NCBI RefSeq assembly: GCF_921293095.1
Contig: NW_025791658.1
Span: 4,898,001 to 4,962,000 of the forward strand
DNA from: Ischnura elegans
Lineage: Eukaryota; Arthropoda; Insecta; Odonata; Coenagrionidae
Direction: 5' to 3'
DNA length: 64,000 nucleotides
Shown: one piece after another, positions 9,179-15,100 of the stretch
How the letters are laid out: each line of letters starts with the position of its first letter
Numbering within the stretch: position 1 is the stretch's first letter
Notes under the pieces: model-generated
What the model was told of the DNA's origin: nothing
Seen by the model: only the letters and a program-made list of their open reading frames with translations
Database searches by the model: none
Made by a program: the position numbers and the translations under genes

Positions 9179-12100
9179 CTACTCGTCGTCCTCCTCTGCA
9201 GCCGCACCACCAGCGCCCTTACGCATGTTCTTCCTCTTGACGCGACCAGGACGGCCGCCACCGAACGGAGACTTGAGCGAGAAGTCAATGTGCTTCTGGG
9301 AGTCCAGGCGAACAATGAAGCTGGGGATGTTCACAACCTGTTTGCGCACCCTGCACACATCACGCAAAGAAAGAGAGAGAAAGGAATCGTTAAACCAAGA
9401 CCACAAAAACAATACCATTAAATAAACACGCAAGATCAGAGTCACTTGATAACCCAGGCCTCCTAAGCTAAAATTCCTATATTTATTATGATTCATTATC
9501 ACCAAAATTTGAAACCCAACATGACTCGAGTGTAAAAAGAATCATTTGGCAAGCACGTTCATTGCAAATTGTTCCATCATTAGTCATCCAAGTATAAAAA
9601 TACTTATTTAGATGACTTAGAGAACAAAACAAATTGGTAATTATGTCTCAGTCATGATCTCTGCCTAGGTTCGAAAAAACAATTGGGGATCTGAATTTAT
9701 GATAAGCATACTCATATCACAGCTTAAATTTCTGGGGCATTCATCCATTTTTCTGGTTACTACAATAATAAATAACTTTTTTTAACCCGAAAAAACTACT
9801 GATAGTGTCTTAAAGTACAGAAAGTCCCTCAATGATGCCACTAAATTATCCCAGTTCAGTTAAAAATTGATGCAAAGTTTTGTAAATTTAGGAAAGGTCA
9901 TTTTCTGATGCTCGACTTCTACCTCCTCCTATTTATTCCTCTCATCAGCATAACTTTGAAAAAAACATCTTCGTATCACAAAAAAATCCCCACAAGACCG
10001 AAGTCTTAACAGGTGCGAGCTATGAATTTTTGAAAAATTGAGTTTCTTTCACCCCACGTCACCAGAATAAGGCGATAAATATATCCTCACCATTCTTGGG
10101 TTAAGGATTAGACATCCATTTCACGACCTTAGCCACATTATGGGCCCAATACGAGCCACATAACTGTAGTATCAAAATATGTAAGTCACTTGGCCTAAGA
10201 ATCCAAGCACAATTTCTCAAAGGAGTACACACCAATAAAAATTTCTAGCCCAAAGAAAACAACAAATTAGGTCACTCCCAATGCACATACAATCAATATG
10301 AAAATGTAATGATTTTTCTATTAAGAAGCATACAAAAACGAACCAGTATAAAATGGATTGCAAGATAAAAATTCATCGTTAACAGACAGCATTGGACCTC
10401 AAATCTTAAGGAAGTAGAACACCATTCTCCGTTTGCAAAATCAGAACAACATGATCGCATACGTGACATGGGAAAAGTCAACCGAATACAATTATCAATA
10501 CCTCTACCGCACAAGCACTCAACAATCGCCCACCAAATTGAATCTGCTCACCTAGTAGCTCAGCAATACAAATCTGCTACGCTACTAGCGTCCGGAGCAT
10601 AAACGCTCATCTCCTATCCTCCAAGCATCGAGATGAGCTTTTTGCTCCGGACACTGCCAGCTGAGCAGATTCGTATTGCTCAGCAACTAGGTGAGCAGAT
10701 TCGATTCGGTGGGCGATTGACGAGTGCTTGTGCGGTGGAGGCATCGTTATGTACCTGCGACTAAATAACTGAAGTAATGATTCGGCCATCATGGTAACTG
10801 CTGAAATGTCTCAAAGTCATGAAACAGAGATGGTATGATTCACCAAATCTGGGATTAAACTAGGAATTTGCTTTCGCCCAGAGTGATTAGGAGACAACAA
10901 TGAGAGTGTAGACTCCTTGCCCACTCAAGGCACATCTCTTCAACATGCAAACAAGCATTGGCCGCCACCCTAGGCAACGTATTTGCTCAAATAGCTATAT
11001 GTACAATAAACAAAATGCAATTTTTTAAGTTTGAAATCCACAGCCAATATACCATCATAATATAAAGCCACAATAATGAATATGTCATTTTAAAGAAAAT
11101 TTTACTGTCATTTCTAATTTATTTTTTAGTTTTATGAAAATTTCATAAATTAGGACACGCCAGTGCAATAAATGACTCCGTGCACCATAAAATTTGCAGT
11201 TTTGTCAACTTCGTGAACTTGGAAACTCAACCTAGGGAAAACTACTACGTCTACAACATTCATCTTCCACAATAATTTGTAAACATTAATGCAGATTAAT
11301 AAAATGGCTTCTTCGTACTTTCAGAATGCATCTTTTGTTGTAAAATGACGGAAATGTTAAGAAACTAACTAGTCCTACAGTTAACCCCAAAAGAAAAAAG
11401 AAAATTGATAGAAATATTCTTGATTTATTTGCAACTTTCTTGTGCGTGGAGTCATTTATTGCACTACTGTCTTGATTTTTCAACTTTTCATAACATAAAA
11501 AATGAAACAGAAATGAGAATAAAATTTCCTTCAAAATGAGGTAATATTCATTATTGCGGCATGCACTGAAGTCCAGATATAAATTTTCAAAGTACAGCTG
11601 CACGTCGTTCAGATGCCGACAGTAGTACTCATGTTATGATAGGCAACCTCAGAATGAAATCAATTGTGGAACTGCGTCATACATCCTAATGAACTCACGT
11701 CCAGAACCTTGCAAATCATGGTTGAGACATCTCTGGATGAAATGACATCAGTTGAGTTCACTGACCAACACGATGAAGCAGTCAAACGCTAAGAAAAAAT
11801 GCACAGACGTTGAGACAAGGGCTCAAAAAAGAGTCACAAAGCCTCAAGTGGTCTGCAAGAACCAATTGGCTCCGAGCATTGGGCTGAAAAGATTCGTCAA
11901 CCCTTCATTAACACACCACACACTCACTCAAAGCAAACTTATTACAGATCACACAAAAGCTAGAGACACTAGAAATGTTCTGCTTTACTTGCATATGAAT
12001 CGTTATCTGTTTTCTCAAATCCATCATTAAGCACGAGTGAAAATTTGAGCAAAATTAATGCAGAGAATAATTATGGATACAGGCGGTCCTCATCTTTCCT

Positions 12101-15100
12101 ACACTCGACTTTCGTACAATTCGCACTTTCATACGTTCAAAATTGACACCTTTTACTTGACTTTCGTAGGCTAAATTTGGACTTTTGACGTTCGTCTCTA
12201 ATTTTTATAAATTCCCGCGATGTTTACAGTGCATCCCAACATTCAATTGTTTCAAATGGCAGTATATGCGAACAGTACGAACGTATATAATGAAGGGAAT
12301 TGTTGGTAGTTGACTCTAATCTAGGTGATTTATTTGGGAGAGAGACTGCCTGTTATAGGCTCCTTTATCAAGAGAAGAAGGAAGCCTTCATTGGAGAGAT
12401 TTTTCAAAAAAGTTGACTAGACATCATCAAATAGCTTTCAATAAAACTAGTAAGATCTTCTTTCTAATTGTGTTTTTTGGTTTGAGTGCTGTTTAATTCA
12501 TGTACACCTTCGGCAACATTGTACGAAATATCACCTGATTTCTGTTCGTCTTGTCTTTTTTGAGTAACATGCAAAATACACACTATCACGAATGTCACCT
12601 GCCGAATGTCGAATTTTGGCCTAAAAATTAAAAGGTATCTAGAGTGCGGATTCAACAATTACATTTTGTTATGCTTCTTGATAGGTCTTTTTATTTATAG
12701 TGGACGTAATAAGTGGAATGACAAATTGAATGCCAAGAGGAAGTTCGCTTGATAGCCAACGGAGTTCTTGTTTTTTAAACTTTTATTTATATTTTCTGCG
12801 TATTTTCAAAAGAAATTAGATGATTTGAGGAAATTTATTAACATATTATTTAAATTTAGTGAATTGAAATAAAATCCGAGAAAAAAAAAAGGTTTTAGTA
12901 CGTATATTTAGTACGGAACGCATTGTGTGCTGAAGTCGGGGACCGCCTGTCTAGCAAAATGACATGATTCTTATAACTACCCTTATGCCAACACATTCCC
13001 AGCAGCGGATTTTTAGACAAATTCACCCGTTGAACTCAAGTGTTTTTCTTTTAAGATCCTTCCTATTTGAAATCACAGAGAACAGCAAACTAAACAATTA
13101 TTAGATTGTATGTTTTTGAATCATTTGTAAGGAAGCAAGCTTTACGAGCAAATTATTATGGCGTTCCACAACCAGATCATGATTTCAACATTTCAAGTAC
13201 AGCAGAATTTCATTCCAATGGCTAGAGTGGCACAATATTGATATCTAAAACCTACAAAAGATTAGCATATTAATTGATATAGTTCAGAGAACGATTTTCA
13301 ATGGCAACCCATTTGCTTTTGAAACCGAACTGGTTTTAACTCACTTACTATGAATAATTCTACAGCATAATATGCATATCACAAAAACATGATTGACCGA
13401 ATATTCAATGAACTACATCAATACACTTTCACTAATAAAGTCAATTGCTGGGAAAAAAAACAACAATTTACTGACACTAGTACTAGGTACTTCATTGGTT
13501 AATGGAAACATTTGGAGAAAAAGTGAACACAAAGCATTGATTAATTGACAATAACAATCAGAGAAGGGTTTCGTTAGCTTAGAATTACCTTCAAAATTAA
13601 AGTGCAGTGCCCTAATCGTACGTTTCACCACTTCAGATTCATTCTTTATCATTTCAAACCTTTAACTGCAACAATTTAATCATGGGGCAACAAAGATATT
13701 ACAAATTATCTCACAAAAATACAATGAACAACAACTTATTTAAGCTGGTTGAAAAACTAGAGGAGATTGAGGTTGCTAGGTTACCGGAACTATTAGAGGC
13801 AATATCTATAACTCCAACTTTAAAACAATTTTAAAGCTCTTAATTAAGTATACTGTGATTGCATGCAACCACTTTGTTAGTAACTACTATTGCAATACAC
13901 AAACGTAAACTGTGTTAACACATTTCCCTGGTCAACACAAGGATGCATGATGAAAAGCAAAAAGTACATTTTCGGTGTCAAAATGATGTGAAGCTGTACT
14001 TAAGTTATAGCTGAAGTTATAGCTGTGCTTGTGTGCATGCTAAAATAATGAAAAATAAGTCATTTTAAAGAATATTTCATTTTATGCAATTTATTGCACT
14101 GCCACGTTAACATTTTTTAATTTTTCATATGATATAAACAATTAAGAATAAAATTCCCTTTAAAATGACACAATTCATTATTATAGCATTCACCGAAGCC
14201 CAAACATAAATTTGCTAAAAAAAAAAAAAAGAGGCATTATTTTGACGCCAACAGTAATCTAAGAGTGGCAAGTACGGAAAAATTATGACGTAATTGACGG
14301 AACTTCGCAGTGTAAGTTAAAGTGTCTCAAAGTCATGAAACAGAGATGGTATGATTCACCAAATCTGGGATTAAACTAGGAATTTGCTCTCGCCCCGAGT
14401 GATTAGGAGATAACAATGAGCGTGTAGACTCCTTGCCCACTCAAGGCACCAGTGAAAACAATTCAAGAATCACAACAGAACGCACAATCGAGGAAAAATC
14501 AGTACGCATATAATGTATCACTTTTCTTTACAGTCAGCAAGAAGCACAACAAAGCTGTGATATCCTTCCGATACTTAGACATTGTGTTCACGTTAGAAAA
14601 ATGAAGGATATTCGAAGCCTTCTCGGGATTTACACAGAGTCCATTCGCTGAAAATCACCAATGTCGCATCGTCATCGAAGTAATTGAATCAAGTTTGACA
14701 AAGCAAAAAGTATGTGATGTAACGATTTACAGCCAACAAAAGGGTAACTCCAGATCGGCAAGAGAGATCAAGGTAATTCAGATAATTCGAGTTCTGAAAA
14801 TTTACCTTTAAAAACTAATTCCACGTTCTCTGGTCAGTCGAACATGAGATGAATGAGTTCTCTTAAAACGTTGGTGATACACGAAATAAACAGGTGGAAA
14901 CTGAGGATACACTTCACGCAATAATTCGCCTGAATAAAATTGCTTCGCATAACAAGAATACGTAACATGCCGTCCCTAGGTTACAATAGAACCGTAGTTT
15001 AAATTAATCCACAGCGGTTGCCAGGTTACATAAACAACGGTTACTAGGCCGTTTCATCACATTGACGCAACTTAAGCAACACCGCGATGACGAAGTAATG

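Follow-up and report, generated by a model that had tools for sequence, protein, structure and literature searches.

The RpS9 intron and its two repeated blocks

The window analysed here, a stretch of 64,000 nucleotides (nt) from the odonate Ischnura elegans (contig NW_025791658.1, positions 4,898,001 to 4,962,000), contains on its minus strand a ribosomal protein gene which we recognise from its protein sequence as RpS9; the protein has an arthropod-like appearance. One intron of this gene holds two near-identical blocks of 130 nt that probably encode box H/ACA small nucleolar RNAs (snoRNAs). The intron lies between a coding exon that ends RQRHI and a downstream exon that begins VRKQVV and runs from about 9350 down; the preceding RpS9 exon ends near 15864. 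An acceptor-like CAG preceding the ATG suggests a further exon 1 in the 5' untranslated region, and with this exon counted the intron from 15451 to 9351 fits the label "RpS9 intron 3" used in a first-pass annotation made from the letters of the window. In the direction of transcription the donor is followed after about 1.0 kb by copy 2, then after 3386 nt by copy 1, and after about 1.45 kb more by the acceptor.

15452..15638, minus strand: RpS9 coding exon ending RQRHI, from the translated frames
9351..15451, minus strand: RpS9 intron holding both copies, GTAAGA ... TGTGCAG, 6101 nt, from the reading of the exons
14320..14449, minus strand: putative guide RNA copy 2, 130 nt, the upstream copy in transcript sense, from identity and sub-threshold Rfam matches
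10804..10933, minus strand: putative guide RNA copy 1, 130 nt, from 125/130 identity to copy 2 and sub-threshold full-length Rfam matches

The near-identical pair on the host strand had been placed correctly in the first-pass annotation, which put the number of differing sites at about four; over the full block length of 130 nt the copies agree at 125 positions and differ at five (T29G, G39A, T54G, A61G and T128C, in RNA-sense numbering). A repeat search of positions 10500 to 15000 returned five direct-repeat families, the long one consisting of this pair alone, and a model built from both copies matched only these two within the window. The many further genomic copies which had been named as a sign against a guide RNA were not seen: a DNA search of the whole assembly (1.72 Gb) yielded two candidates, both of them the known copies, and an assembly-wide search with a pattern of the guide hairpin that allowed a variable loop matched the same two, all such genome-wide counts being lower bounds.

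The flanks of the two blocks, which had been said to share nothing, are indeed without significant similarity. In Smith-Waterman comparisons of the 300-nt flanks the observed scores were reached by 269/300 shuffles upstream and 70/300 downstream, respectively; with flanks shortened to 100 nt the counts were 280/300 and 110/300. The strongest two of 12 end-to-end flank tests, both with 30 nt downstream, were equalled or exceeded in 30/800 and 122/3000 random pairs of intron sequence, and since 12 tests were made these signals are weak. Residual flank similarity, which might have served as proof of an old segmental duplication, was thus not significant in any of the flank tests.

Boxes and predicted fold

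On the host strand both copies are predicted to fold as hairpin, hinge, hairpin and tail, the layout of box H/ACA RNAs, with the following parts.

10875..10933, minus strand: copy 1 5' hairpin, predicted fold -24.4 kcal/mol
10869..10874, minus strand: copy 1 box H, read as AAAGCA
10810..10868, minus strand: copy 1 3' hairpin with the guide pocket, identical in copy 2, predicted fold -12.3 kcal/mol
10853..10858, minus strand: copy 1 5' guide arm UUAAUC, which pairs with 28S GAUUAA
10818..10823, minus strand: copy 1 3' guide arm UUCAUG, which pairs with 28S CAUGAA
10807..10809, minus strand: copy 1 box ACA, 3 nt from the block end
14391..14449, minus strand: copy 2 5' hairpin, predicted fold -26.5 kcal/mol, with a lower-stem gap closed by T54G
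14385..14390, minus strand: copy 2 box H, read as AGAGCA
14326..14384, minus strand: copy 2 3' hairpin with the guide pocket, predicted fold -12.3 kcal/mol
14369..14374, minus strand: copy 2 5' guide arm UUAAUC, from the sequence
14334..14339, minus strand: copy 2 3' guide arm UUCAUG, from the sequence
14323..14325, minus strand: copy 2 box ACA, from the box reading

Both forms of box H stand in the hinge and fit ANANNA, and in each copy box ACA is followed by the last three bases of the shared block (TTT or CTT), at what would be the mature 3' end. The two hairpins, box H and terminal ACA of the first-pass annotation are therefore present in the predicted folds of both copies. The distance of exactly 15 nt that it gave for every pocket proved to depend on where the upper stem is taken to end; if the count starts at the base where pairing of the 3' guide arm begins, box ACA is reached after 14 nt in the 3' pocket of both copies, inside the range of about 14-16 nt expected between a target U and its box.

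With a few flanking bases the minimum free energy (MFE) folds reach -38.6 and -40.3 kcal/mol (z scores of -2.36 and -2.53), and only 4/200 shuffles for copy 1 and 1/200 for copy 2 fold as well as the host strand, while the opposite strand gives z scores of only -0.38 and -0.42. The differences between the copies leave the boxes intact, as had been claimed, and nearly preserve the pairing, which had also been said to be kept: T54G adds one pair in copy 2, and G39A removes one isolated pair from the MFE fold of copy 1. The 59-nt guide hairpin carries none of the five differences (p = 0.049 under random placement), a hint of selection and no more.

Similarity to H/ACA families

A covariance-model search, one of the checks proposed in the first-pass annotation, was run with Rfam. 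At the curated cut-offs the whole window gave no matches; a scan of positions 9000 to 17000 (8 kb) at relaxed thresholds listed six, four of which are the two copies, each matched end to end but below threshold by ceN84 (RF01655) and by SNORA48 (ACA48, RF00554). The remaining two are SNORD60-like and mir-2209-like stretches. A narrower scan, limited to copy 1 and its surroundings (301 bases), also listed a mir-BART2-like match on the other strand (17.1 bits, E-value 2.3), which was taken as chance.

The match to ceN84, a Caenorhabditis H/ACA RNA, covers the full model length in copies 1 and 2 (34.3 and 33.7 bits, E-values 0.013 and 0.018), and the copies share with it the arms UAAUCC and UUCAUGA and the UUGAGACA end, although they fall below its cut-off of 80 bits. 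The literature searched under the name ceN84 yielded no target. SNORA48 likewise matches over its full model length (28.9 and 25.9 bits, E-values 0.0099 and 0.052), and here the likeness extends to the H/ACA layout, the position of the pocket in the 3' hairpin, the UUCAUG arm and, by offset, the target. The copies differ from SNORA48 in falling below its 50-bit cut-off, in one guide base that has changed in step with the rRNA, and in their host, RpS9 here as against the SENP3-EIF4A1 listed for human. As a member of the Rfam family SNORA48 the locus thus fails the curated score, yet it would be expected to work like SNORA48. A search of the whole assembly with RF00554 gave no matches among the 41 of 88939 candidates that were scored, and the two copies themselves were likewise not recovered by it; its controls gave no signal, and the negative therefore carries no weight.

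A candidate target in 28S ribosomal RNA

Matching the pocket of the second hairpin to ribosomal RNA had also been proposed as a check, and it led to a 28S site with six pairs on each side. The scan covered the uridines of the genome's own 18S, 5.8S and two or three 28S pieces, with piece ends excluded, and required at least three contiguous pairs per side. The 18S is complete as judged by Rfam, and one assembly stretch (L024) contains the whole 18S together with a 5.8S and, at a contig end, the beginning of 28S; the large-subunit model has 3401 positions, of which the 28S pieces used span about 1630. For the 3' pocket the best site was 28S CAUGAA[U]G GAUUAA, where six Watson-Crick pairs form on each side of an unpaired U-G (-6.0 kcal/mol); the runner-up, a 5.8S site, has 3+7 pairs at -3.9 kcal/mol. 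For the pocket of the 5' hairpin no convincing target was found in the rRNA pieces scanned, which cover about half of 28S: one choice of stem gave no site, and the best sites under two others were equalled by 246/300 and 253/300 shuffles.

In a 28S fragment of this genome (C16, in stretch L027), the target uridine is found 56 nt downstream of the U that comes first in the helix 69 (H69) motif CUAUGAC. A 57-nt pattern spanning H69 and the target, searched with a tolerance of three mismatches, had one match in the assembly, with one mismatch, and 14 places carry the 29 nt surrounding the site; a different pattern, of 36 nt from H69, had no exact match in the assembly. The corresponding human H69 position is 3741, and human 28S-3797 lies at the same offset (3797-3741 = 56). 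In PMC6466398, snoRA48 is tabulated for 28S-3797 with SENP3-EIF4A1 as host, and the table of yeast 25S modifications in PMC8307265 assigns the pseudouridines (Psi) Psi2258 and Psi2260 to snR191 and Psi2314 to snR86. The yeast offset (2314-2258) is again 56, equal to that in the fragment from this genome; snR86 is likened to the present copies by this position alone. The 3' pocket thus fits what is expected of a SNORA48-type guide, and the site is most likely the equivalent of human 28S-3797 and yeast 25S-2314, as far as alignment by offset can tell.

The guide arm reads UUAAUCC in these copies and UUCAUCC in the SNORA48 consensus. The genome's own 28S fragments read GGATTAA at the site, where human 28S presumably reads GGAUGAA. 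Guide arm and rRNA both differ from SNORA48 and human at this base, and the change in the guide therefore appears to follow that in the rRNA; this co-change is offered for testing. The human form of the stretch is present in a human-genome primer named for SLCO5A1 and printed in PMC4915809, GCATGAATGGATGAACGAGAT, which we take to lie in 28S-like sequence of the human genome.

Interpretation and alternatives

We consider it likely, with a probability of roughly 0.86, that the two blocks represent paralogous genes for box H/ACA snoRNAs, functionally of the SNORA48/snR86 type, within one RpS9 intron, because full-length family matches, the box layout, strand-specific folding, the target site and the presence of only two copies point the same way. 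The duplicated pseudouridylation guide in a ribosomal protein intron that was proposed in the first-pass annotation is thereby supported, now with a named candidate target. Several observations weigh against this interpretation. All Rfam scores are under the curated cut-offs. The pairing energy is modest, and a single base is left out of the pairing between each guide arm and the upper stem. In a blind search, equally good rRNA sites were found for 12/500 shuffled guides by a simple score, and 38/300 did as well by energy. For the preset site, 6+6 pairing with G-U allowed arose in only 17/200000 shuffled guides, a figure that applies to a site not chosen blind. The 28S pieces, moreover, are dispersed fragments of poorly assembled ribosomal DNA and include no full gene. 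The target claim draws on the conjunction of the family matches, the layout, the position of the pocket and the site.

Intronic guides of this class are released by debranching of the intron and exonuclease trimming, and dyskerin then pseudouridylates the unpaired U of the target. Exonuclease trimming of introns up to the snoRNA core proteins is described in PMC11028025. In the present case one or both of the 130-nt RNAs would be freed from the spliced RpS9 intron by processing, and their 3' pocket (UUAAUC...UUCAUG) would pair with 28S on either side of the unpaired U-G, and dyskerin would convert that U, the presumed equivalent of human 28S-3797 and yeast 25S-2314, to pseudouridine. The second copy, which would have arisen by duplication within the gene, may serve as a redundant further source of this guide. 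What the analysis shows is the sequence, the boxes, the predicted folds, the place in the intron, the number of copies found and the pairing with a 28S fragment of the same genome; expression, assembly into ribonucleoprotein, the modification and the function of both copies are inferred.

The guide would be of an ordinary and ancient kind, and what is unusual is its doubling inside a single intron. The predominant rule, according to PMC11028025, is one snoRNA per intron; the near-identical pair described here would be an exception to it, and the RpS9 intron may offer a simple case for studying intron processing. It would also be a place where a deeply conserved rRNA modification guide resides with a sequence match only below Rfam cut-offs. 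A near-identical H/ACA pair in one ribosomal protein gene has been described in sponges, where, according to PMC3412847, an RPL13A snoRNA is duplicated in a neighbouring intron in 3/4 species, with 94% identity in one; there the pair occupies neighbouring introns, whereas in RpS9 both copies share one.

Alternatives concern the nature of the blocks, their activity and their origin, and those on origin and activity are compatible with the interpretation as guide genes, their likelihoods not summing to 1. That the blocks are chance hairpins or a short interspersed element (SINE)-like repeat is very improbable: complementarity to rRNA in the blind search is by itself not significant, as this would predict, but both copies match the families over their full length and fold in a strand-specific manner, and the SINE-like repeat is rejected on copy number, two having been found in the assembly. 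Somewhat unlikely, though to be taken seriously, is that only one copy is an active guide and the other a recent, decaying duplicate. A single guide would be enough, and the differences sit in the 5' hairpin, box H and the tail; against this, every difference keeps the boxes, the guide hairpin is unchanged, and T54G strengthens the stem of the 5' hairpin (-26.5 versus -24.4 kcal/mol). An improbable further outcome is an H/ACA-ended long noncoding RNA (sno-lncRNA), in which exonuclease trimming of the debranched intron stops where it meets the two particles from outside, so that an RNA of about 3.6 kb, from 14449 to 10804, remains with a particle at each end; single guides might be produced as well. 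Two H/ACA RNAs on the same strand of one intron, 3386 nt apart, provide the arrangement, and such pairs can yield sno-lncRNAs, of which SLERT is given as an example in PMC11028025; in SLERT and other sno-lncRNAs the two snoRNAs per intron are alike to this case, but there the RNA is described, and here we read the genes alone. Repeat-like stretches between the copies speak against it, as does the general experience that snoRNAs are more commonly excised singly. If it were true, transcription of a ribosomal protein gene, a guide for a 28S pseudouridine and a nucleolar long RNA, an invertebrate sno-lncRNA, would issue from one locus.

As to origin, it is possible, at odds clearly short of even, that one copy is a snoRT, reverse-transcribed from the mature RNA and reinserted in the same intron, whether as a functional gene or a pseudogene. 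The ends of the shared block coincide with those of the predicted mature RNA and the flanks are not significantly alike, so that the spread by retroposition suggested in the first-pass annotation would fit the clean edges. It is not supported, however: neither copy has an A-tail (by eye), and there is no significant target-site duplication, since the scores of copy 1 and copy 2 for such a duplication are ordinary (reached by 625/2000 and 205/2000 random intron pairs); no further copies were found in the genome, and an old tandem duplication with decayed flanks would look alike. Intragenic duplication accounts for the facts equally well. PMC2653536 proposes this as the major route by which snoRNAs have multiplied in chicken and suggests that those spread by retroposition may have their origin in mammals, which would count against a snoRT here.

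Neighbouring sequence

Several features near the two guide RNA candidates were recorded. A near-palindromic element of 250 nt at 10495-10745, with arms of 103 nt that are 85% complementary, ends about 60 nt from copy 1. It has at least 80 matches genome-wide, both orientations counted, from the 40 of 1641 candidates that were scored, and because of its many genomic matches and palindromic arms it may be regarded as a foldback or miniature inverted-repeat transposable element (MITE)-like repeat. Between the copies, at 11072-11591 and 14047-14218, lie pieces of repeats in both direct and inverted orientation; they have diverged (about 75-86%) and are probably transposon remnants.

A box C/D-like stretch with GTGATGA and CTGA boxes lies at 15729-15807 on the minus strand, in the preceding RpS9 intron. 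It is the SNORD60-like match of the relaxed scan, and is sub-threshold at 21.7 bits against a cut-off of 42 (E-value 1.8 in 8 kb and 0.051 in 226 nt). Directly before one CTGA, ACACCTCTTGT pairs over 11 nt, two of them G-U, with the 28S fragment ATGAGAGGTGT, a pairing given here with no shuffle control.

Elsewhere in the assembly (L008, L027, L037 and others) the 28S motif occurs at 14 places and the 18S start motif at 10. The stretches examined carry 28S as fragments only, several of them around H69, and no complete 28S was met among them. The H69 region is the insertion zone of R1 and R2 elements. Further along the window, the minus strand has open frames in which C2H2 zinc-finger motifs can be recognised by eye, at 28776-29288, 33248-33610 and 34354-34836.

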